Assembly (NCBI GenBank): GCA_036504215.1
Contig: DASXVO010000035.1
Coordinates: 1-64,000, forward strand
Direction: 5' to 3'
From: Vicinamibacterales bacterium
GTDB taxonomy: Bacteria > Acidobacteriota > Vicinamibacteria > Vicinamibacterales > Fen-181
Length of the DNA: 64,000 bases
The translations under genes and the position numbers were made by a program. The notes under the pieces were generated by a model. The model was not told the origin of the DNA. It made no database searches and was given only the letters and a program-made list of their open reading frames with translations. Of the stretch, positions 43,310 to 53,271 are shown piece after piece (position 1 is the stretch's first letter; every line of letters begins with the position of its first letter).

Positions 43310-44011
43310 GTGCAGACCCCGTTCGTTGGCAGTGTCGAGTCGATCGTGGGGGCGATGGAAGCCCGGCAGCCGACCGTGGCGTCGCACTGCCGTCGCGTAT
43401 CCGCCTACGCCGTCCAGCTCGCGATCCAGTATGGGCTCTCCGAGGGCCTGGTAGAGACGCTCCGCGTGGGCGGCCTCATCCACGACATCGGCAAGTTGCT
43501 CATCCCCACTCCCATCCTGCTCAAGCCGGGTCGCCTGACCGAACGCCAGTGGACCACGCTCCAGCGGCATGTCGAACTCGGCGCGTCGATGGCCGAGCAT
43601 CTCGGCTTCGACGCGGCGGTCACGCAAATCGTGCTGGGCCATCACGAGCGCATCGACGGCAGTGGGTATCCAGACGCGGTCACCGCCGAGTCCATCCCGT
43701 GGCTGGTCCGAATCGTCAGCGTCATGGATGCGTTCGATGCCCTGACCAGTCCGCGGACCTATCGGGAAGCCCTCTCCATCGACGCCGCCCGCATCCTGCT
43801 CGCGCGCGAGGCGGCGGTCCGCTACTGCCCGTGGGCCGTCAGCGGCCTCCTGTCGCTTCCTCGGGCCTTGCTCGAGGCCATCGCGCACGGTGAGGTCGGG
43901 GCCTACCAGCCAGAGGGTCGGCCGAGCGCCGACGCCCTGGCCGGCGCGACCACCCCCTGGGTGGCCGCGATGTTCACCGACCCCGAACACGCCGCCGCCT
44001 GCTGGGCGTAA
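43310..44011 (+). CDS. HD-GYP-type phosphohydrolase
   Basis: 233 aa from GTG 43310, which has GAAAGG about 9 nt upstream; a TTG at 43241 would add 23 low-complexity residues. The HD-GYP series is present: HCRRVSAYA, HDIGKLLIP, ERQWTTLQRHVELGASM, GHHERIDGSGYPD and MDAFDALTSPRTYRE. HD-GYP proteins with HHExxDGxGYP hydrolyse cyclic di-GMP; this one has HHERIDGSGYP. There is no receiver or sensor domain, and the C-terminal 60 residues are unassigned. It precedes an ABC exporter pair that has its own promoter. Confidence 0.83.
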   Translation: MQTPFVGSVESIVGAMEARQPTVASHCRRVSAYAVQLAIQYGLSEGLVETLRVGGLIHDIGKLLIPTPILLKPGRLTERQWTTLQRHVELGASMAEHLGFDAAVTQIVLGHHERIDGSGYPDAVTAESIPWLVRIVSVMDAFDALTSPRTYREALSIDAARILLAREAAVRYCPWAVSGLLSLPRALLEAIAHGEVGAYQPEGRPSADALAGATTPWVAAMFTDPEHAAACWA

Positions 44012-44115
44012 TCGCCGATTCCAGGAACACAGGACCCTCCGAGCGCACAGAGGAGGTCGAGCCAGCCCGGCGCTGCCGGCGCTGTCGCCTCTGTATCGAG
44101 CATCGATTCCCGTAC

Positions 44116-44121
44116 TACAAT
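44116..44121 (+). promoter_or_regulatory. -10 box (TACAAT) for the ABC exporter operon
   Basis: TACAAT ends 8 nt before ATG 44130, so the transcript is probably leaderless or nearly so; no ribosome binding site is visible between. Confidence 0.5.
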
Positions 44122-44129
44122 GGCGACAC

Positions 44130-44873
44130 ATGATCGTTGTTGAACGCCTGACCAAGATGTACGACGACTTCACCGCGGTGGACGGCCTGTCGTTCGCCGT
44201 CAGCCGAGGGGAAGTCGTCGGTCTGATCGGACCGAACGGCGCCGGCAAGACCACCACGCTCAAGTGCGTCGTCGGCATTCAGGCGCCGAGTGCCGGGTTT
44301 GTCCGGATCGACGGGCACGACATCGTCACCGACCCGATCGAGGCGAAGCGCCGACTGGCCTTCATGCCGGACGAGCCGCAGTTGTTCGAGTACCTCACCG
44401 TGCGCGAGCACCTGAGCCTTGTCGCACGGCTCTATCGGGTCACAGATGCCGCCGCCCGCGTGCCCGGTCTGCTCGACGAGCTGGAGTTGACCGGCAAGGA
44501 GAAGGCACTGCCGGGGGAGCTTTCCCGTGGCATGCGCCAGAAACTCGTCATCGCGTGTGGTCTGCTGCACAGCCCGGACGTTCTGCTGTTCGACGAGCCC
44601 CTGACGGGTCTCGATCCGATCGGCATCCGACGCATGAAGCAGAGTATCGTCGCCAGGGCAAAGGCCGGCGCGGCGGTCGTCGTGTCGTCGCATCTGCTCC
44701 ACCTGGTCGAGGAGATCTGCACCCGCATCGTCATCATCAACAAGGGGACGAAGATCGCGGACGGAACGCTCGCTGAACTCGCGGCTCGGTCCGATCTGGC
44801 GGCGGCCGGATCAGACCTCGAGCAGATCTTCCTGCGAGCGACTGGACACGCCGACGAGACGAAATCGCCATGA
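44130..44873 (+). CDS. ABC transporter ATP-binding protein (ABC-2 type)
   Basis: 247 aa from ATG 44130. Walker A GPNGAGKTTT (about 36-45), Q-loop MPDEPQLFEYLTV, signature LSRGMRQKL in place of LSGGQ, Walker B VLLFDEPLTGLDP and switch His SSHLL are present. The short form and GxMRQK signature fit ATPases of ABC-2-type exporters. It overlaps the permease gene (ATGA), so the two work together. Cargo is unknown. Confidence 0.9.
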   Translation: MIVVERLTKMYDDFTAVDGLSFAVSRGEVVGLIGPNGAGKTTTLKCVVGIQAPSAGFVRIDGHDIVTDPIEAKRRLAFMPDEPQLFEYLTVREHLSLVARLYRVTDAAARVPGLLDELELTGKEKALPGELSRGMRQKLVIACGLLHSPDVLLFDEPLTGLDPIGIRRMKQSIVARAKAGAAVVVSSHLLHLVEEICTRIVIINKGTKIADGTLAELAARSDLAAAGSDLEQIFLRATGHADETKSP

Positions 44874-46594
44874 CGGGCGTGTTCCTGTTCGTCACCGCGT
44901 GCACGCTGAAGAACCGGCTGCACCGCCGGCTGCGGCGTCTCCGCGAGCCCCGGTATGCGGCCGGGCTCGTGGCTGGCCTTGCATATCTCTACTGGTTCCT
45001 CATCCGCAACCAGTTCCGCAGGGCGGGAGCCGGCCGGCTGCCGATCGAGCGCCTCGACGGCGTCCTCGCCTCGGCCGGACCGTATCTGGTCGTCGCCGGC
45101 GCGTTCGGTCTCTGGCTGGCCGCGGCCCTCGCCTGGGTGTTCTCGGCGTGGAAGCCGTCAATCACCTTCACACCGGCCGAGGTGCAGTTCCTCTACACCG
45201 CACCGGTCGGACGCCGACGGTTGCTCAACTACAAGCTCCTGCGGATGCAAGGCGGCATCATATTCGGCCTCTCGATCGCCGCGCTGTTCTCGGGCGCGCT
45301 CCGGGCGGCCATGTCCGGGCGCTGGTCGTTCGTACTTGGTGGGTGGCTGTTGTTGTCCACGATAGCCCTGCACGCGGTCGGGATCAGCCTGACGAAGGCG
45401 CGGCTCTCGACGGGTTCGTTGAACGGCGCGACGCGGCTGTGGACCGCGTGGCTGGTGCCTGGTTTCACGGGAATCGTGTCAGGCGTCGTCCTGTCGGTCG
45501 TGGCTCTCCACGCGAGAGAATGGGCCAAGCTGCAACCCCTCGACGCGGCCAGGGATGCGCTCGGTCACGCCGTCTCCGGTCCTGCGGCCGCGGCGCTCTG
45601 GCCGTTCAAGGCCGTGGTGGCTCCGCTGCTCGCGGTCGAACCGGGTGCGTTCGTCCCGGCGCTGGTGCCTGCGCTGTTCGTCCTGGCGCTCAACTACGTG
45701 TGGGTCATGATGTCGGATTCGGTGCTGAGCGAGGCCGTCGTGGCGGCGGAATCGCAGCGCGCGCGGGGGCGCCGGGCGGCACCAACGGCTGTCGTTCGCG
45801 GTGAGCCGTTCTCGCTGCGGGTCGAGGGACGCCCGGAACTGGCCGTGGCCTGGAAGAACTTGATTCTGCTCAGCCGCTACGCATCCATATGGACCGTCGT
45901 GCGGGTGCTGGTGCCGGTCCTGCTTCTCGGTGTCGTCCTCGGGACCGGCCGCTCGGCCGGTGTGCTCGCGCCGGTCGCGCTGGCCTTGCTTGGGTTCGCC
46001 GCGATCCTCGGCCCCGACATCGTTCGCAACGACCTCCGGGACGACCTGCCGCGACTCGCCGTGCTGAAGACCTGGCCGATGTCCGCCACGAGTCTCCTCG
46101 TGGGCGAGTTGCTGGCACCAACGCTCGTGCTGACCGTCACCATCTGGTTTCTGGATGCGCTGGCGCTCACGCTCTCGTCCGGACTCCGCGCGGGACCGCA
46201 CGCGCTCATCGATCGGGTCTTCCTGGCCCTGGCTGTGGCCATCGTCGCACCGATGTTGGCGGTCGGGAGACTCGTGATCCAGAACGCGGCGGTGATTCTG
46301 TTCCCGGGCTGGATCCCGACCGGTGGAGCACGGCCACGCGGCATCGAGGCGATGGGACAGAACATGCTGACGTTCGCCGGGACGTTCGTGGTCCTGGTGC
46401 TCGGGGTACTACCGCCCGTACTGGTGTCCGGCGGGCTCGGCTTCGTGCTGTGGATGTGGCTCGGGTGGGCGGCGCTGCTGCCGTCAGCGGCCCTGTTCGC
46501 CGGCGTGCTCCTGGGCGAGGCCGCGTTCGCGGTGGCGGTGCTCGGCCGCTTGCTGGGCCGGACCGAGCCCAGCCAGGTCGAGGTCGAAGAGTAG
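44870..46594 (+). CDS. ABC exporter permease-like membrane protein
   Basis: 574 aa, overlapping the ATPase stop by four bases. About 12 hydrophobic segments in two clusters (residues 25-290 and 325-565) are separated by a charged stretch around ESQRARGRRAAP. It resembles the putative ABC exporter permeases seen beside ABC-2 ATPases in several phyla, usually unnamed. Motifs such as FTPAEVQFLYTAPVGRRRLL are typical of that group. Transport substrate cannot be predicted. Confidence 0.75.
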   Translation: MTGVFLFVTACTLKNRLHRRLRRLREPRYAAGLVAGLAYLYWFLIRNQFRRAGAGRLPIERLDGVLASAGPYLVVAGAFGLWLAAALAWVFSAWKPSITFTPAEVQFLYTAPVGRRRLLNYKLLRMQGGIIFGLSIAALFSGALRAAMSGRWSFVLGGWLLLSTIALHAVGISLTKARLSTGSLNGATRLWTAWLVPGFTGIVSGVVLSVVALHAREWAKLQPLDAARDALGHAVSGPAAAALWPFKAVVAPLLAVEPGAFVPALVPALFVLALNYVWVMMSDSVLSEAVVAAESQRARGRRAAPTAVVRGEPFSLRVEGRPELAVAWKNLILLSRYASIWTVVRVLVPVLLLGVVLGTGRSAGVLAPVALALLGFAAILGPDIVRNDLRDDLPRLAVLKTWPMSATSLLVGELLAPTLVLTVTIWFLDALALTLSSGLRAGPHALIDRVFLALAVAIVAPMLAVGRLVIQNAAVILFPGWIPTGGARPRGIEAMGQNMLTFAGTFVVLVLGVLPPVLVSGGLGFVLWMWLGWAALLPSAALFAGVLLGEAAFAVAVLGRLLGRTEPSQVEVEE

Positions 46595-46595
46595 C

Positions 46596-46621
46596 GGGCC
46601 GTCTCTCGAGTCTACCGGCCC
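46596..46621. terminator. Possible bidirectional terminator between convergent genes
   Basis: GGGCCG and CGGCCC flank a 14-nt loop between the exporter gene and the CHAT gene, overlapping the latter's stop. The stem is short and has no U-run. Confidence 0.3.
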
Positions 46622-49600
46622 CCAATCACCATGAAGCCGGCCCAGTGGTACGGATGGCGCGTTGCCGGTTGCGCGAGCGTTGATTTCATCGCGCGCTGCA
46701 GCGAGAACGCCACCTCGGGTGGCGCGGGCCTGGCCGTTCGGGACGGTGTGAGGAACGACCGGTAGAAGGCCGCGATCACGGGAAACCCGGTGGCCGGCGG
46801 CAGCCAGCGGTTGATGGCTACTTGCGGCGTCCCCGCGACGAACAGCGACCAGAACAGGGTTGTCAGAGCATCGCCGCCTCCGTTCGGGCCCAATCCCGCC
46901 TCGACCCTGGTCAGCACCGCCACCGTTGCCGGCAGTTCGCAGTCCATGAACGACGCGATCTCGGTGAGACCGTCGGCGCCATCCGTATCGCCGTCGGGGG
47001 CCATCGCCAGCAACGAGTAGAGCGGAGCGGCCTCGCTCAAAAATCCTGGGACCGCGACATGGAGGACGGACCCGGTCGCCACGCCCCGCGCCACCTGGGA
47101 CCATCGCGCGTCGCCGCGGAAGAACATCTTGCGCCGGACCTGGGCGAAGAGCAGCGAGGCTCGACGTACCTCTCGCTCGGCGCTCGCGGGCGACTTGGAA
47201 GCCGCGGTTGGCCTCAGCAAGGCGAGGCGGCTCGTGGCGGCTGGGCCGAGCAGCGGGTCAGCGAACGCGACGAGCGATGTGGGAGCGCGTGGATCGGGCG
47301 TGGAACCGGCGACCGTCACGAGCGACGTCAGCGAGGGTGCGTAGGAGATTGCGGCGCCTTCGATGAGATAGTGGCCCGAGGGCGTGACGAGCGCCTCGAA
47401 GGGGAGCAGCCAGAGGAACGCGTCGGGGATGATGATGATCCGCTTGCGGCCCTCGATCGCGGCCTGGACCGGTGCGAGCAGGAGCGAGTGCAGGTCCTGA
47501 GAGAGCGCGTCAACGCCGTCACCCTGGTTTGCGATCGCGTCGCGGAACTTGCGCACTTGCTGCGCCAGTTGATCCGCTCTCACTTCGATCGTGGCCACCT
47601 GCAGCAGGCTGGGCGGCGCGGAGGCCGTCGCCCGACCCACGGCGAACACCCAGGTCCGCGCGTCACTGACGGCGAAGGCCAGGATGACGGTCGAGGGCAG
47701 ACGGAGCAGCGGAGCGACTCCCGACACACCAATCGCGTCGTTCTGTGCGCGCTGCCCGCGGAGCGCCCGATGTGAATCGTAGAGAGTCTGCCGCAGCTTC
47801 TCGCGCTCGCGCTCGAGTGTGGAGAGCTGGCCGGCAAGCGTTCGCACGCGGTCGGTGTCGGGGTGTGCGCGTCCGCGCTCGCGCCGTATCTTGACGCCGA
47901 CCGTCCTGGCTTCGCGCATGAGCCGTCGTTCCTCGTCGCGCTCGGCGGGTGTCAGACCCTTGCTGACGACCATGCCGCCTTCGCCGAGTTGATCGGCGAG
48001 CGCTCGCTGCCGGCCCCGCTCGGCCCACACGAACGCCTCCTCCGTGCGACCCGATCCGACGAGCAGATCGACCAACGCCAGGTACGGCGCACGACGATTG
48101 TCGAAGAACGTCTCGGCAGCCGGGCCGAGCGGCACCTTCGCCAGCGCGGCCACCGATTCCTCGAGGGCAGCCAGCGCCTGATCGTTCCGGCCCGCTTTCT
48201 GGTGTGCCTTGCCAATGACCGTCTTGGCATACGCCACGGTGTCGAAGTGCTCGATGGACGTCGCAACCTCGGTCGCGCGGGTCGCCGCGGCCACCGCGTC
48301 TTCGGCGTGACCCTGTTGGAGCGACGCATTGGCGCGCAGCGCCAGCGCCGTGGCGATGGCCGATTGTTCCTTGCTGGCTTCCGAGATGGTGAGACTCCGC
48401 TCGTTGGCAGCAATCGCCTCGTCGTACCGGCCCCGCGAGGCGTGGAGGACGCCGATGTGGATCAGCGTCCACATGACGCCGGGGTCGTCCTTCAGTCTCT
48501 CGCGGAGGGCGAGGCTCCGCTGGTACTCGGTCAGCGCGAGGTCGGCGTCTCCGAGCGCGAAGTGCGCCCCGCCGAGACCACCCAGGTCGCGTGCGATGCC
48601 GGCCTCGGCGGCGTCCGCCGCGTTCCCGCCTCCTTCATCGAGCGTGAGTGCCTGCTGGTACTGCTCGATCGCCCGTTCGAAGCTCCGCTGCAGGGCGTGG
48701 AGTTGGCCGAGCGCGAACCGGGCGCTGGCCCGGTTGACCGGCAGCCGCAGGCGGTCGTACTCCGCGACGCACTTCGTCTGGTACTCGAGGGCTCTCGCCA
48801 GATCCCCCTGCAGGCGGAAGATCTCTGCGATGCCGCCCAGTGCCCTCGCAACGCCGTTCCTGTCCTTGGTGGTCTCGCTCACGGCGAGCGCGCGTCGCCA
48901 GGCGTCCGCCGCGGCGGCATACTCGCCCTGTTCCTTGTTGACCAGCGCAATCGCCTGATATACGCCCGCGGTCGTGTAGATCTGCTTGGCCCGATCCATG
49001 ACCGCGAGCGCCCGCTGATAGTGCTCGAGCGCGCGGGAGAACTCGGTCTGCATGTAGAGCGCATTGCCGAGCCCTTGTAGCGCGGACGCCATGCCGGCAT
49101 CGTCGTTCAGCCGCTCGAACGGGGTGAGCGCCCGTTGATACAGGTCGGCGGCGCGCACGAAGTCGCCGGCCGCGTACGCGAGGTTCGCGAGATTGGCATC
49201 GCAAGCAGCCGCATCGCCGTCGCTCCCGTCGGCGACGAAGGCCTCGCGAGCCGACGTAAACGCGCGTCCGGCTTCGTCGCGGCGACCCGACATCATCAAG
49301 ATGGATCCGGAGTTCAGCTGCGTCCGGCCGAGCACGCCCTGGTTGCCGAGAGTCCTGGCCAGCCGGCCCTGCAGCCCCAGGATCTCGAGGACGTCCTCGA
49401 ACTTGCCTTGACTCTGCAGCCTCCCTGCCTCCAGCCCAAGGCCTGTCAGCGTGTCGTCCGACGCCAGATCGGGTTCGCGGGCGAGGAGCGCGTCCCGCTG
49501 GTCCGCGGGAACTCCGAGCAGCCTGGCCGCGAGCTGTGGCGCGGCAGACGCTTCGTTCCAGATCTTCCAACCGTCGTCGCCCTCGAGAAACGTGAAGTCA

Positions 49601-50007
49601 CGGATGCGGCGCTCGTGGCGGATCCGCCCCGTCTTGGCGTCGGTGACCGTCAGATCGATCACCGCCCGCGCGCGGCCGCCGCCGGGGTCCGCCGAGACGT
49701 CTCGGAGCGACAGTGTGTCGAGCGCGACGGACCGCAGATCGAATTCCAGGAGGACGATGTTTCGGCCGTAGCGAGCGGGGCCGCGCACGTGCCAGCAGGC
49801 CGCCATGGCCTCGATGTCCTTCCGGACATACGCGTCGAAGTAACGCTGGAGCAGCCCACGGAATGCTGCCTCAGGAGCCTGCGCGCCAGCGGCCGGCACG
49901 GCCAGGGCGGAGGAGGACTGGGCTGCTGTTGTGGACGGGATGGCCAGACACGCTGCCAGGAACAGGATCCATACGAGGCCAGAGCAGAGTTGATGTCGGC
50001 GCCGCAC
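46612..50007 (-). CDS. Secreted NTF2-like/TPR/CHAT protein with a degenerate CHAT domain
   Basis: 1131 aa. A Sec signal peptide (about 1-29) precedes an NTF2/SnoaL-like domain (about 46-165, FRGLLQRYFDAYVRKD). At least nine tetratricopeptide repeats follow (about 190-640, for example ALEHYQRALAVMDRA), then a coiled coil (about 690-750) and a C-terminal CHAT fold (about 830-1131). Active CHAT proteases have HG after a strand and a Cys in an SAC motif. Here these positions read LHVAVPG (about 977) and LTRVEAG (about 1030), so both His and Cys are lost. It is probably a periplasmic scaffold rather than a protease. Confidence 0.8.
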   Translation of the reverse strand: MRRRHQLCSGLVWILFLAACLAIPSTTAAQSSSALAVPAAGAQAPEAAFRGLLQRYFDAYVRKDIEAMAACWHVRGPARYGRNIVLLEFDLRSVALDTLSLRDVSADPGGGRARAVIDLTVTDAKTGRIRHERRIRDFTFLEGDDGWKIWNEASAAPQLAARLLGVPADQRDALLAREPDLASDDTLTGLGLEAGRLQSQGKFEDVLEILGLQGRLARTLGNQGVLGRTQLNSGSILMMSGRRDEAGRAFTSAREAFVADGSDGDAAACDANLANLAYAAGDFVRAADLYQRALTPFERLNDDAGMASALQGLGNALYMQTEFSRALEHYQRALAVMDRAKQIYTTAGVYQAIALVNKEQGEYAAAADAWRRALAVSETTKDRNGVARALGGIAEIFRLQGDLARALEYQTKCVAEYDRLRLPVNRASARFALGQLHALQRSFERAIEQYQQALTLDEGGGNAADAAEAGIARDLGGLGGAHFALGDADLALTEYQRSLALRERLKDDPGVMWTLIHIGVLHASRGRYDEAIAANERSLTISEASKEQSAIATALALRANASLQQGHAEDAVAAATRATEVATSIEHFDTVAYAKTVIGKAHQKAGRNDQALAALEESVAALAKVPLGPAAETFFDNRRAPYLALVDLLVGSGRTEEAFVWAERGRQRALADQLGEGGMVVSKGLTPAERDEERRLMREARTVGVKIRRERGRAHPDTDRVRTLAGQLSTLEREREKLRQTLYDSHRALRGQRAQNDAIGVSGVAPLLRLPSTVILAFAVSDARTWVFAVGRATASAPPSLLQVATIEVRADQLAQQVRKFRDAIANQGDGVDALSQDLHSLLLAPVQAAIEGRKRIIIIPDAFLWLLPFEALVTPSGHYLIEGAAISYAPSLTSLVTVAGSTPDPRAPTSLVAFADPLLGPAATSRLALLRPTAASKSPASAEREVRRASLLFAQVRRKMFFRGDARWSQVARGVATGSVLHVAVPGFLSEAAPLYSLLAMAPDGDTDGADGLTEIASFMDCELPATVAVLTRVEAGLGPNGGGDALTTLFWSLFVAGTPQVAINRWLPPATGFPVIAAFYRSFLTPSRTARPAPPEVAFSLQRAMKSTLAQPATRHPYHWAGFMVIGGR

Positions 50008-50171
50008 GTCGCCTCCTCGGCTGGTGAGCAGGAACGGGATCTCAGTCGTGTTAGACGCCGTCGACCGGCAAATGGCCCGGGGCAGGAGGAGAGCGGCGTG
50101 CGAAGGCAGGAGAACGGCGCAGCAACACCGCTGTCAGGACGCTGGCTGGGATGGAGTTCGCAAGCCTCGGG

Positions 50172-50885
50172 CTAACGCGGATTGTCGACGATCTCGTAGG
50201 CGCCGGACGCGGGCTTCATGTCGGAGTAGTGCGGGATGGTGCGGCCGTTCACGACCGCAAGGGTCTTGTAGATCGGGCGCGTGACGGGTGCGACGCCAAC
50301 CGATGTTCGCGTCTTGACCTTCCGGACGTAGTCTCTCGTCTCGCGATAGGGGGGAACCGTGTTCCCGTAGCGTCCCACCGCCTCGGGGCCCGCATTGTAG
50401 GCCGCCAGCGCAAGCTCTTCGTTGTTCTCGAACCGATCGAGCAACCGACGCAGGTATGCGACACCGCCGCGGATGCTCTCTTCCGGATCGTAGGGACGGC
50501 GAACGCCGAGCAGTGCGGCCGTGGACGGCATCAACTGCATGAGGCCCATCGCGCCCTTCGGGGACCGGGCGCGCGGATTGTAGCCCGATTCGACTTGGGC
50601 AACCGCCCGAACGAGGTCCGGTCGGACCCGTTGGGCGCGTGCGTGCTCGACGATGAGCGAGTCGTAGGCGTCGCGGTTGACCGTCGAGGCCGGTCTCGTG
50701 ACGCGGAGATCGGGGCTGGCGTGCGGGACCTCGAACGTCCGGACCGAGGTGGAGGCGTCCGCAGGCGCGTGATCGGACAGCACGAGGGTGCCGTTCGCGT
50801 TCCGCCACGTGTAGATCTGCGCGCTTGCCACCGAAGCGGTCGCCAGAGTCATCACGAGCAGGACGAACGTCCGCAGCAAGTACAC
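50172..50885 (-). CDS. Lytic transglycosylase (SLT domain) with DUF4124
   Basis: 237 aa with GTG start at 50885. A signal peptide (about 1-22) is followed by a DUF4124 segment (IYTWRNANGTLVLSDHAP) and a family 1 lytic transglycosylase domain with catalytic Glu E99 in AQVESGYNPRARS, GAMGLMQLMP and AYNAGPEAV. It would cleave peptidoglycan to 1,6-anhydro products in the periplasm during growth or machinery insertion. It stands alone between the CHAT gene and the zinc-ribbon/SPFH pair. Confidence 0.9.
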   Translation of the reverse strand: MYLLRTFVLLVMTLATASVASAQIYTWRNANGTLVLSDHAPADASTSVRTFEVPHASPDLRVTRPASTVNRDAYDSLIVEHARAQRVRPDLVRAVAQVESGYNPRARSPKGAMGLMQLMPSTAALLGVRRPYDPEESIRGGVAYLRRLLDRFENNEELALAAYNAGPEAVGRYGNTVPPYRETRDYVRKVKTRTSVGVAPVTRPIYKTLAVVNGRTIPHYSDMKPASGAYEIVDNPR

Positions 50886-51023: not shown

Positions 51024-52118
51024 CTACTTCTGCGACAGCATCAGGATGATGAGCGCGACGATGACGGCCAGGGCGACAGCCGCGACAATCTTCCAGCCGC
51101 TCTTCGGGTAGCGGCCGGCAATCGCTCCCGTGTAGCCGTTGGCGACGACCTGGTACGCCTTCCGACCGTACGTGTAGGTGAGCAGCCAGATCGGCACGAG
51201 GATGTGCTTGAACGTCAGTCCTGAGTACTCCGGCTCAATCTGCAGGTTCCTCTGCGTGTCGCCCGGCACCTCGCGTGAGCACAACTGCATCAGTTCGGCG
51301 CGCATCTGCTCGCGCGAGGCGTTGGCCGCGTCCAGCAGCACGACCTGGTAGTGTTCGACGACGTAGCCGGACAGGTAGGCCGTGTCGTACGCGACGAGTT
51401 CCGTGGTTGGGAACGGTTCCACGCCCCTCAACAGCGACGAATCGACCCCCCGACTTCCTGGCACCAGCTCATCGTCGAACACGTGGGAAATCTCGCCGCT
51501 TGCCGATTCCCACCTCACGCGCTGCACCTGCCGTGTCTGGGTGCGGCCGTCCGAGTCTCGGTATTCCTCCGTGACGTAGTAGTAGTAGCCGGCTTCCGCC
51601 GTCCACGGGCAGCGCGCCTGCGCGTCGAACGTCCAGTAGGGAATGTAGAGGCCCTTGATTTGGTCGACGAGCGCGCTACCTTTGAGCGCGCCTGGCGCGA
51701 ACCAGCGGCTGCCGTACCACTGCCGCATACTGTCACGGACTTGTGTCTGCGACACCTTGAACGGCAGCAGGCTCTGCGGACGGATCGGGGACTTGATCTC
51801 CTGGTAGTCCACGAGCGCCGGCGAGCCGCAGAACTCGCAGTTCTGGCCGACGCGGGCGGGGTCGTAGACCATCACCGCCTTGCAACTCTGGCACTGCACG
51901 GTGCGGCGTTCGAGTTGCCAGCCGCGCTCGTCCTCCGGCATCGCCCGAAGCGCCGAGACCAGGTCGAGTTCCTGGATCGCGCCCGTGTTCTGATCGATCT
52001 TGTACGGCGACTCGGTGCCGCAGAACGGGCACACGAGCCGCTGTTTCGCCGCATTCCACTCGGCCTGCGCCCCGCAGGCCGGACATGCATGCTTCTCGAG
52101 CGCGATGATTTCGGGCAT
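51024..52118 (-). CDS. Zinc-ribbon, tail-anchored membrane protein
   Basis: 364 aa from ATG 52118; GTG 52136 would add six residues. Two N-terminal zinc ribbons (CPAC...CPFC at about 12-33; CQSC...CEFC at about 75-98) precede a beta-rich domain (about 110-330) and a single C-terminal helix (about 343-361). The order recalls Bacillus YdjG-type proteins, which partner an SPFH protein and link PspA to the membrane; the SPFH gene is adjacent. Databases sometimes mislabel such zinc ribbons as primosomal helicases; no helicase motif is present. Confidence 0.7.
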   Translation of the reverse strand: MPEIIALEKHACPACGAQAEWNAAKQRLVCPFCGTESPYKIDQNTGAIQELDLVSALRAMPEDERGWQLERRTVQCQSCKAVMVYDPARVGQNCEFCGSPALVDYQEIKSPIRPQSLLPFKVSQTQVRDSMRQWYGSRWFAPGALKGSALVDQIKGLYIPYWTFDAQARCPWTAEAGYYYYVTEEYRDSDGRTQTRQVQRVRWESASGEISHVFDDELVPGSRGVDSSLLRGVEPFPTTELVAYDTAYLSGYVVEHYQVVLLDAANASREQMRAELMQLCSREVPGDTQRNLQIEPEYSGLTFKHILVPIWLLTYTYGRKAYQVVANGYTGAIAGRYPKSGWKIVAAVALAVIVALIILMLSQK

Positions 52119-52194
52119 AGAAGTCACACGGGGCACGACGTGTTGTGCCCCGCCTGCGCAACGTGCTCATCGATCCACGGCCAGGAGCCGCGCC

Positions 52195-53271
52195 CTACTG
52201 GGCCAGATACGCGTCGAGCGCGGCCTTCGTGATGCGGAAGCTGCTGCCGATCTTCTTGGCCTTCAATTCACCCGACTCGATGATGGCCATGACGTCGGCC
52301 TCGGGAACACCGAGGCGCTTGGCAACGTCTGGCGGCGCGAGCAGTTCGGCGGCCGGAGCCGCGGCCGGCGCCGTCGCGGCCTGGGCGGCGCCCTGTGCGG
52401 CGGCCTGGCCCCCCGGCGCGGGGCTCATCCCCTGTTGCATCATCTGCTGTGCGATGCCGAAGCCAACCGCCAGCTCTGCCGCCATCCCGCCGCCACCGGC
52501 CGTCCCCGATTCCATCCCCTTGCCCATCTGGTACTTCACGAAATCGTTCAGGTTCCCGATCGCTGCCATGCTGGATCGCTTGTCGATCGCCTGTTCGACT
52601 TCCGGAGGGACGGACACGTTCTCGACGACGAAGCTGGTGATTTCCAGGCCGTACTTCTCACCGACGATCGGGTTGATCAGCGGGAGCAGTGCTTCGCCCA
52701 GCTCGCTGTACCGGGTAGCCACGTCGAGCGCCGGCACGTGCGAGGTGGCGAGCGCCTCGCTGAAGACGCTGACGAGTCGAGACCGCATCGTATCGGCGAA
52801 CTCGTCGAGCCGGAAGTGCTGATCCGATCCGGCGACTTCCTTGAGGAACAGCTTGGGTTCGACGATCTTGAAGTCGTAGATGCCGAACGCCCGCATGCGC
52901 ACGACGCCGAAGTCCTGGTCGCGCACCATGATCGGGTTGGCCGTACCCCACTTGTTGCCGGTGAAGAGCCTCGTGGCGAGGAAGTAGACGTCCGCCTTGA
53001 ACGGCGAGTTGAAGCCGTACTTCCACGAGGCGAGCTTCGTCAGGACCGGGATGTTGTCGGTGGTGAGCGTGTGTTTGCCAGGCGCGAACGTGTCGCCGAA
53101 CTGCCCGAGGTAGAGGAACTGTACGAGCTGCGACTCCCGCACGATCAACTGAGCGCCGTTCTTGATCGCCTTGTCCTCGTCCGGGTACCGGTAGGACAAC
53201 GTGTCCCGGGAATCGTCCGTCCACTCGATGACGTCGATCAGTTCGCCCTTGATGAAGTCGAACACACCCAT
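52195..53271 (-). CDS. SPFH-domain protein with C-terminal excisionase-type HTH
   Basis: 358 aa. Residues ~30-240 are a YdjI-like SPFH (band 7) domain (KHTLTTDNIPVLTKL, RAFGIYDFKI). A Gly/Ala/Gln-rich linker (about 265-305) leads to a terminal helix-turn-helix (about 307-355): LLAPPDVAKRLGVPEADV, then IIESGELKAKKIGSSFRITKAALDAYL. The HTH matches the MerR/excisionase HTH_17 pattern. Related proteins usually end in a zinc ribbon or GYF domain. It probably forms membrane-associated oligomers with the neighbouring zinc-ribbon protein, perhaps in envelope stress. Confidence 0.78.
   Translation of the reverse strand: MGVFDFIKGELIDVIEWTDDSRDTLSYRYPDEDKAIKNGAQLIVRESQLVQFLYLGQFGDTFAPGKHTLTTDNIPVLTKLASWKYGFNSPFKADVYFLATRLFTGNKWGTANPIMVRDQDFGVVRMRAFGIYDFKIVEPKLFLKEVAGSDQHFRLDEFADTMRSRLVSVFSEALATSHVPALDVATRYSELGEALLPLINPIVGEKYGLEITSFVVENVSVPPEVEQAIDKRSSMAAIGNLNDFVKYQMGKGMESGTAGGGGMAAELAVGFGIAQQMMQQGMSPAPGGQAAAQGAAQAATAPAAAPAAELLAPPDVAKRLGVPEADVMAIIESGELKAKKIGSSFRITKAALDAYLAQ

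Follow-up and report, generated by a model that had tools for sequence, protein, structure and literature searches.

A conserved TPR-CHAT protein without its catalytic dyad in Acidobacteriota: a probable pseudo-protease of the cell envelope

The window analyzed here, 64,000 nucleotides of contig DASXVO010000035.1 (assembly GCA_036504215.1) from a soil-dwelling Vicinamibacterales bacterium of the phylum Acidobacteriota, carries a gene for a TPR-CHAT protein in which both members of the His-Cys catalytic dyad have been replaced. The same loss recurs in related genomes, and the product is probably a conserved envelope pseudo-protease reused as a non-catalytic protein-binding scaffold or adaptor. 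The pseudo-protease interpretation, already proposed in the initial annotation, is well supported by conserved loss, a conserved fold core, intact reading frames, and purifying selection; that the protein binds rather than cuts is an inference. The gene and its parts lie as follows.

46612..50007, minus strand: whole gene (leader, NTF2-like domain, TPRs, pseudo-CHAT), 1131 aa, GTG start
50012..50017, minus strand: AGGAGG, resembling a ribosome-binding site, 4 nt upstream of the GTG
49918..50007, minus strand: signal peptide, residues 1-30, judged by eye, with a presumed cleavage site
49528..49875, minus strand: NTF2-like (SnoaL/DUF4440) domain, residues 45-160
48028..49458, minus strand: TPR superhelix, residues 184-660
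46621..47508, minus strand: CHAT domain without catalytic dyad, residues 834-1129
47047..47049, minus strand: Pro987 codon, in place of the catalytic His
46903..46905, minus strand: Val1035 codon, in place of the catalytic Cys

When 59 CHAT pieces are aligned, Pro987 stands at the position of the catalytic His and Val1035 at that of the Cys, with HVAVPG (983-988) and LTRVEAG (1032-1037) of the window protein opposite LATHGLF and LSGCGTG of an intact CHAT protein from the same genome (L030). Comparison with intact CHATs thus confirms that both catalytic residues are missing, as first claimed from the sequence. The domain is still recognized by PF12770 over residues 834-1129, at 119.3 bits against a cut-off of 24. 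Both H and C are present in the two other CHATs of the genome (L030 and L002).

A wider survey covered 96 CHAT open reading frames from fetched loci within one phylum, found by similarity to the window protein or to PF12770. H and C are present in 77, both are absent from 15, and four are fragments unread at one or both of the two columns. Most dead copies belong to two families of the same order, coded in the search as f1, the family of the window genome, and f15. Among the five f1 copies the His position holds Pro in the window protein, L005, L006, and L009 and Phe in L007, and among the seven f15 copies (L008, L039, L041, L042, L043, L049, L084) it is uniformly Pro. Both residues are therefore gone in 12/12 copies read, His having given way to Pro in 11 and to Phe in one, and Cys to V, L, A, G, or P. 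Two further f15 copies (G046, G049) end before the CHAT, leaving the dyad columns unreadable. Dead copies outside these families are L141 (P/A), L139 (Q/S), and L162 (T/S), of which L139 comes from a genome (G439) with 23 CHAT matches, a large expansion. In 30 further-checked CHAT pieces from 12 genomes, five of them unread at one or both dyad columns, the known dead copies recur and the other fully readable pieces have H and C. The orthologs also answer the question whether the loss is peculiar to one sequence, since H or C is kept in 0/4 other f1 copies and 0/7 f15 copies; a singleton or sequencing error is ruled out by this recurrence.

Comparison of 29 CHAT columns that are invariant in 20 intact near relatives with the 12 dead f1/f15 copies separates a retained core from a degenerate active site. 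Fourteen columns (P861, L865, W866, P869, L873, S892, P995, S998, W1053, A1058, G1059, W1068, P1119, W1122) persist in 10 or more of the 12, eight (H987, G988, A1034, C1035, E1046, G1047, G1050, S1066) in at most one, and the remaining seven are intermediate. The lost columns comprise the catalytic residues, their neighbours, and positions 11-31 residues past the Cys. E1046, G1047, G1050, and S1066 may have shaped the substrate site, and with their loss the old groove is not obviously the means by which the pseudo-CHAT would bind, if it does. Residue 1034 is R or Q in f1 and D in f15, a consistent difference that might be taken to favour a substitute catalytic pair or a novel enzymatic function within that pocket. 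Such an activity is very improbable, given that no Cys column is conserved in seven or more rows of a nine-row pseudo-CHAT alignment, and that His983, Ser892, and Ser998, conserved in the dead copies, are likewise conserved in intact relatives (85-100%) and so are family-wide features.

Judging from codon comparisons, selection on the dead CHAT is purifying, with the CHAT evolving slightly faster than the TPR region: the ratio of nonsynonymous to synonymous substitution rates (dN/dS; NG86, four pairs) is 0.34-0.43 for the former and 0.18-0.35 for the latter, these being rough values at a dS of 0.89-1.51. An NTF2 comparison of L008 with L039 (dN 1.16) was set aside because L039 is without the domain.

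The hydrophobic leader probably directs export, and a periplasmic location of the protein is suggested on the basis of this leader, which was judged by eye. It contains L-A-A-C at residues 17-20, a possible lipobox; the Cys is absent there in L005. For the G001 ortholog, too, a GTG was taken as the start. The N-terminal domain of the window protein scores below the cut-off (18.9 versus 25.2 bits; DUF4440 E 0.0021, Lumazine_bd_2 E 0.0063), and weak DUF4440/SnoaL/Lumazine_bd_2 matches occur in 8/8 members tried (E<=5), rising above the cut-off only in L008 (29.3 versus 25.2 bits). These families are presumably NTF2-like, and the predicted model of residues 45-154, an alpha+beta domain of ~115 residues, has two helices followed by four strands. 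The TPR part matches PF13424 (1.6e-38, six stretches) and has ~11 TPR-like helix pairs; it is well modelled, and Foldseek comparison of the model returns LGN-type binding superhelices (LGN, 1.5e-12). Roughly residues 45-740 of the full-length model can be used, at a mean predicted local distance difference test score (pLDDT) of 58.0. Identity between the window protein and L005 is 65% in the NTF2-like domain, 58% in the TPRs, 46% in the linker, and 51% in the CHAT.

Used as a single query against solved structures, the CHAT part had no match at E<=1. A profile built from 40 relatives matched Craspase TPR-CHAT (8d9f, 7x8a) and separase (5fc2) at E 0.0007-0.0009, with single stretches weak. Both dyad loops align with this profile for Craspase, the catalytic pair of which is H585/C627 (PMC9729208; this and the papers cited below are represented by part of their text), and the Cys loop alone aligns for separase.

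In a 53-row tree (6 of 59 rows dropped, the dead fragment L049 among them), dead copies and ten intact TPR-CHAT proteins form a 21-row clan with support 100/100, within which several of the intact proteins start with sequences that look signal-peptide-like by eye. The NTF2-like domain is detected in 9/10 near-full-length f1/f15 copies and in the dead L139, and it accompanies intact H and C in L138 and in the G074 copy (L124:3641-7009). In the G074 copy, the frame is split by a single in-frame TAG. L039 and L141 keep the dead CHAT with no NTF2-like domain detected. Because the same architecture occurs with a live dyad, these comparisons suggest that dyad loss is the derived state. The trees do not settle a common origin of the f1 and f15 losses. 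Eleven dead copies lie on one side of a branch with support 79/92 in the 53-row tree. A 68-row tree (28 of 96 rows dropped, fragments and distant intact rows) needs at least two changes for its 14 dead rows, with L162 on another branch. A 39-row tree, chosen from the 96, has two changes, or one in 28% of bootstrap trees, and a single clade of its 13 dead rows is neither rejected (approximately unbiased test, p-AU 0.36) nor demonstrated; columns around His and Cys were omitted from the trees. L162 (G442), with Thr/Ser in place of the dyad and a separate branch, probably reflects an independent loss.

The genomic context of intact relatives differs from that of the dead copies. In a survey of 35 loci with 36 CHATs, in which sigma-like genes were identified by phmmer searches that used two of these genes as queries, a sigma-like gene lies near 15/23 intact CHATs, accompanied in 14 of those cases by a zf-HC2-like gene, versus 0/13 dead loci with either gene; neither was found in the window (Fisher p = 9e-5 for the sigma-like context, a value uncorrected for relatedness or for flanks of unequal extent). 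The sigma-like proteins are divergent, 2/13 scanned (L167, L168) passing the Pfam sigma-70 cut-off; of the first three scanned, two matched Sigma70_r2 below the cut-off and one matched nothing, and the Pfam scan gave no sigma match better than E 0.05 for L165, L169, L066, L071, L059, and L076. The zf-HC2 cut-off is reached by 9/13 candidate anti-sigma neighbours scanned, and 10/14 zf-HC2-like partners have at least one hydrophobic span by crude hydropathy. Sigma-like genes stand beside intact TPR-CHATs at L061, L062, L064, L066, L068, L071, L074, L059, L076, L165, L167, L168, L169, and L172, with a zf-HC2-like gene at all of these except L169; a membrane span is frequent in the partners, and some match TPRs at the C-terminus. 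The intact relatives thus look like a candidate module of sigma factor, anti-sigma factor, and exported CHAT protein.

Dead copies have other neighbours. A TonB_C gene precedes the pseudo-CHAT gene in 4/6 f15 loci (L056, L065, L069, L084), and the TonB stop overlaps the start taken for pseudo-CHAT in 4/4 f15 junctions read; a fifth locus, L070, ends at a contig edge on the TonB side. NDH2 and DUF3810 genes follow in 5/6 f15 loci, the exception being L070, with 2 kb left. NDH2 also follows in G047, and in G049 TonB adjoins the copy that is cut before its CHAT. Around the f1 gene of the window lie the following.

50172..50885, minus strand: SLT lytic transglycosylase with DUF4124, upstream neighbour on the same strand and candidate partner
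43890..46594, plus strand: ABC ATPase and ABC_export-like permease (the latter below cut-off), convergent with the CHAT gene

The order leuS-lptE-holA-rpsT-HD-GYP-ABC-permease-CHAT-SLT-...-alaS is shared by the window, G001, and G006, several of these labels being presumptive assignments from general knowledge. The SLT gene is found in 7/7 f1 genomes; in the window, G001, and G006 it lies 117-219 nt upstream of the CHAT gene on the same strand. ABC ATPase/permease genes were not found between HD-GYP and CHAT in G003 and G004, the contigs of which break before the SLT position. In the G003 copy (L058:7996-9093), at a contig end, a portion of the NTF2-like domain is joined almost directly to the CHAT, the TPRs being missing in frame; this may be a real deletion or a misassembly of the metagenome-assembled genome (MAG). 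The first ~45 residues of the frame at the G004 contig end (L057) resemble, by eye, a stretch of a P-type ATPase, and this end is probably chimeric. Further upstream, window positions 51024-53271 include an SPFH/Band 7 protein with a C-terminal HTH_17 match and, beside it, a zinc-ribbon-like protein (below cut-off) with a hydrophobic segment at its end. In G005 the SLT gene (L188:9648-10322) has the opposite orientation to that in the window, and no zinc-ribbon or SPFH gene was found in the stretch examined at that locus.

Under the favoured interpretation as an envelope scaffold, a secreted TPR-CHAT protease ancestor would have lost His, Cys, and the columns near them while retaining the core of the CHAT and the TPR superhelix, along with the N-terminal NTF2-like domain in most copies. 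The dead protein would now serve as scaffold or adaptor, with envelope proteins bound via the TPR groove and the dead CHAT surface; candidate partners are the SLT lytic transglycosylase in f1 and the TonB-type protein in f15. Several observations count against this account. The CHAT-only predicted model gives no usable fold (mean pLDDT 30.7), and CHAT dN exceeds TPR dN in 4/4 pairs. Neighbours of the dead gene differ between f1 and f15, and the f15 locus L067 has no TonB gene at the corresponding place. G002 and G005 (each 83% complete) keep the f1 locus, including SLT, with the CHAT gene cleanly absent; the gene is hence dispensable, and SLT adjacency may be plain synteny and does not prove partnership. 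Finally, 8/23 intact loci are without a sigma-like gene, including both intact NTF2-like copies (loci L163, L124), so that the disappearance of this context may have preceded that of catalysis. An obligate partnership with SLT was also considered, and is weakened by the presence of SLT in every f1 genome and by the CHAT-free loci of G002 and G005.

The higher dN of the CHAT would suit a protein in which this domain is an inert structural cap and function resides in the NTF2-like domain, through ligand binding, or in the TPRs alone; NTF2-like domains often bind ligands. We consider this unlikely, as L865, W866, P869, S892, P995, S998, W1053, G1059, P1119, and W1122 are unchanged in 12/12 dead copies, and L039 and L141 dispense with a detectable NTF2-like domain and keep the dead CHAT. 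Clean absence from G002 and G005, together with the G003 copy lacking most of its TPR region (subject to possible misassembly at that contig end), would fit a gene in decay, the relic of a protease no longer needed. That explanation appears quite improbable in view of nine other copies with long open frames, at identities down to 23% among eight aligned, a dN/dS well under 1, and the invariant core. Decoy or dominant-negative action is a common pseudoenzyme role; here a dead partner would tune an active CHAT protease of the same cell, and the window genome, G004, and f15 genomes encode further CHATs that retain H and C. The two other CHATs of the window genome, however, fall in a different large clade, and G001 and G006 (both rated 100% complete, contamination 4 and 6%) yielded no second CHAT; unless one was missed by the search or lies in assembly gaps, no active CHAT is left there to regulate. 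A decoy is rejected on this ground as a general role, and we regard it as highly improbable overall.

Beyond the envelope scaffold itself, a broader evolutionary proposal is tentative and, on balance, doubtful, the more so as most sigma-like genes fall below Pfam cut-offs. It holds that the dead copies would form a long-lived family of stand-alone dead CHATs, the sole CHAT of some genomes, derived from secreted proteases most near relatives of which stand in sigma-like/zf-HC2 modules. These proteins would have been rewired as partners of envelope machinery: in one bacterial family they would be translationally coupled to a TonB-type protein, and in another their gene would follow that of a lytic transglycosylase.

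Among the nearest characterized systems is Csx29/Craspase, in which TPRs are followed by a separase-like CHAT region as in the window protein, a likeness reflected in the profile match to solved structures. Csx29 cleaves Csx30, an inhibitor of an extracytoplasmic function (ECF) sigma factor (PMC10028731), and the sigma-like and zf-HC2 neighbours of the intact relatives resemble this Csx29-Csx30-sigma axis in outline, as far as the available text of that report describes it. Unlike Csx29/Craspase, the window protein has a leader, judged by eye, and no dyad. Cas7-11 and Csx30 were not recognized among the neighbours in general family scans, no search having been aimed at them; the flanking genes scanned match SLT, zinc-ribbon (below cut-off), SPFH, and ABC families. 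Csx29 also pairs an active CHAT2 with a CHAT1 of the pseudo-caspase type (PMC10028731), whereas in the window protein the PF12770-matching unit itself is dead.

Dead caspase-fold proteins are thus already known, both within Csx29 and as pseudo-orthocaspases, prokaryotic caspase homologs with conserved dyad loss and Tyr/Ser for His/Cys (PMC6426788). Pseudo-orthocaspases have p20 domains and are described, in the available part of that paper, from phototrophs; the window protein differs in having a CHAT with TPRs and a leader, Pro/Val in place of Tyr/Ser, and an acidobacterial host. HetF, a cyanobacterial CHAT protein with a divisome role via FtsI, loses function upon active-site mutation (PMC8406250), unlike the window protein, in which the catalytic site is gone. 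LbcA and NlpI, TPR lipoproteins that handle cell-wall hydrolases (PMC6050968), offer a precedent for the scaffold reading as a works-like comparison only; they differ in serving C-terminal processing proteases. In the literature searched (titles and abstract starts, with most subscription journals outside coverage), no paper on inactive stand-alone CHAT proteins was found, and PMC10028731 alone combined a CHAT domain with extracytoplasmic function.

The dead f1 and f15 copies offer a natural example of catalysis lost from a caspase/separase-like protease that retained the core of its fold, and relatives with an intact copy, a dead copy, or no gene at all are available for comparison. If borne out, the occurrence of apparently secreted intact TPR-CHATs beside sigma-like/zf-HC2 genes could extend the Csx29 theme, in which a sigma factor is freed by a CHAT protease, to non-CRISPR envelope signalling.

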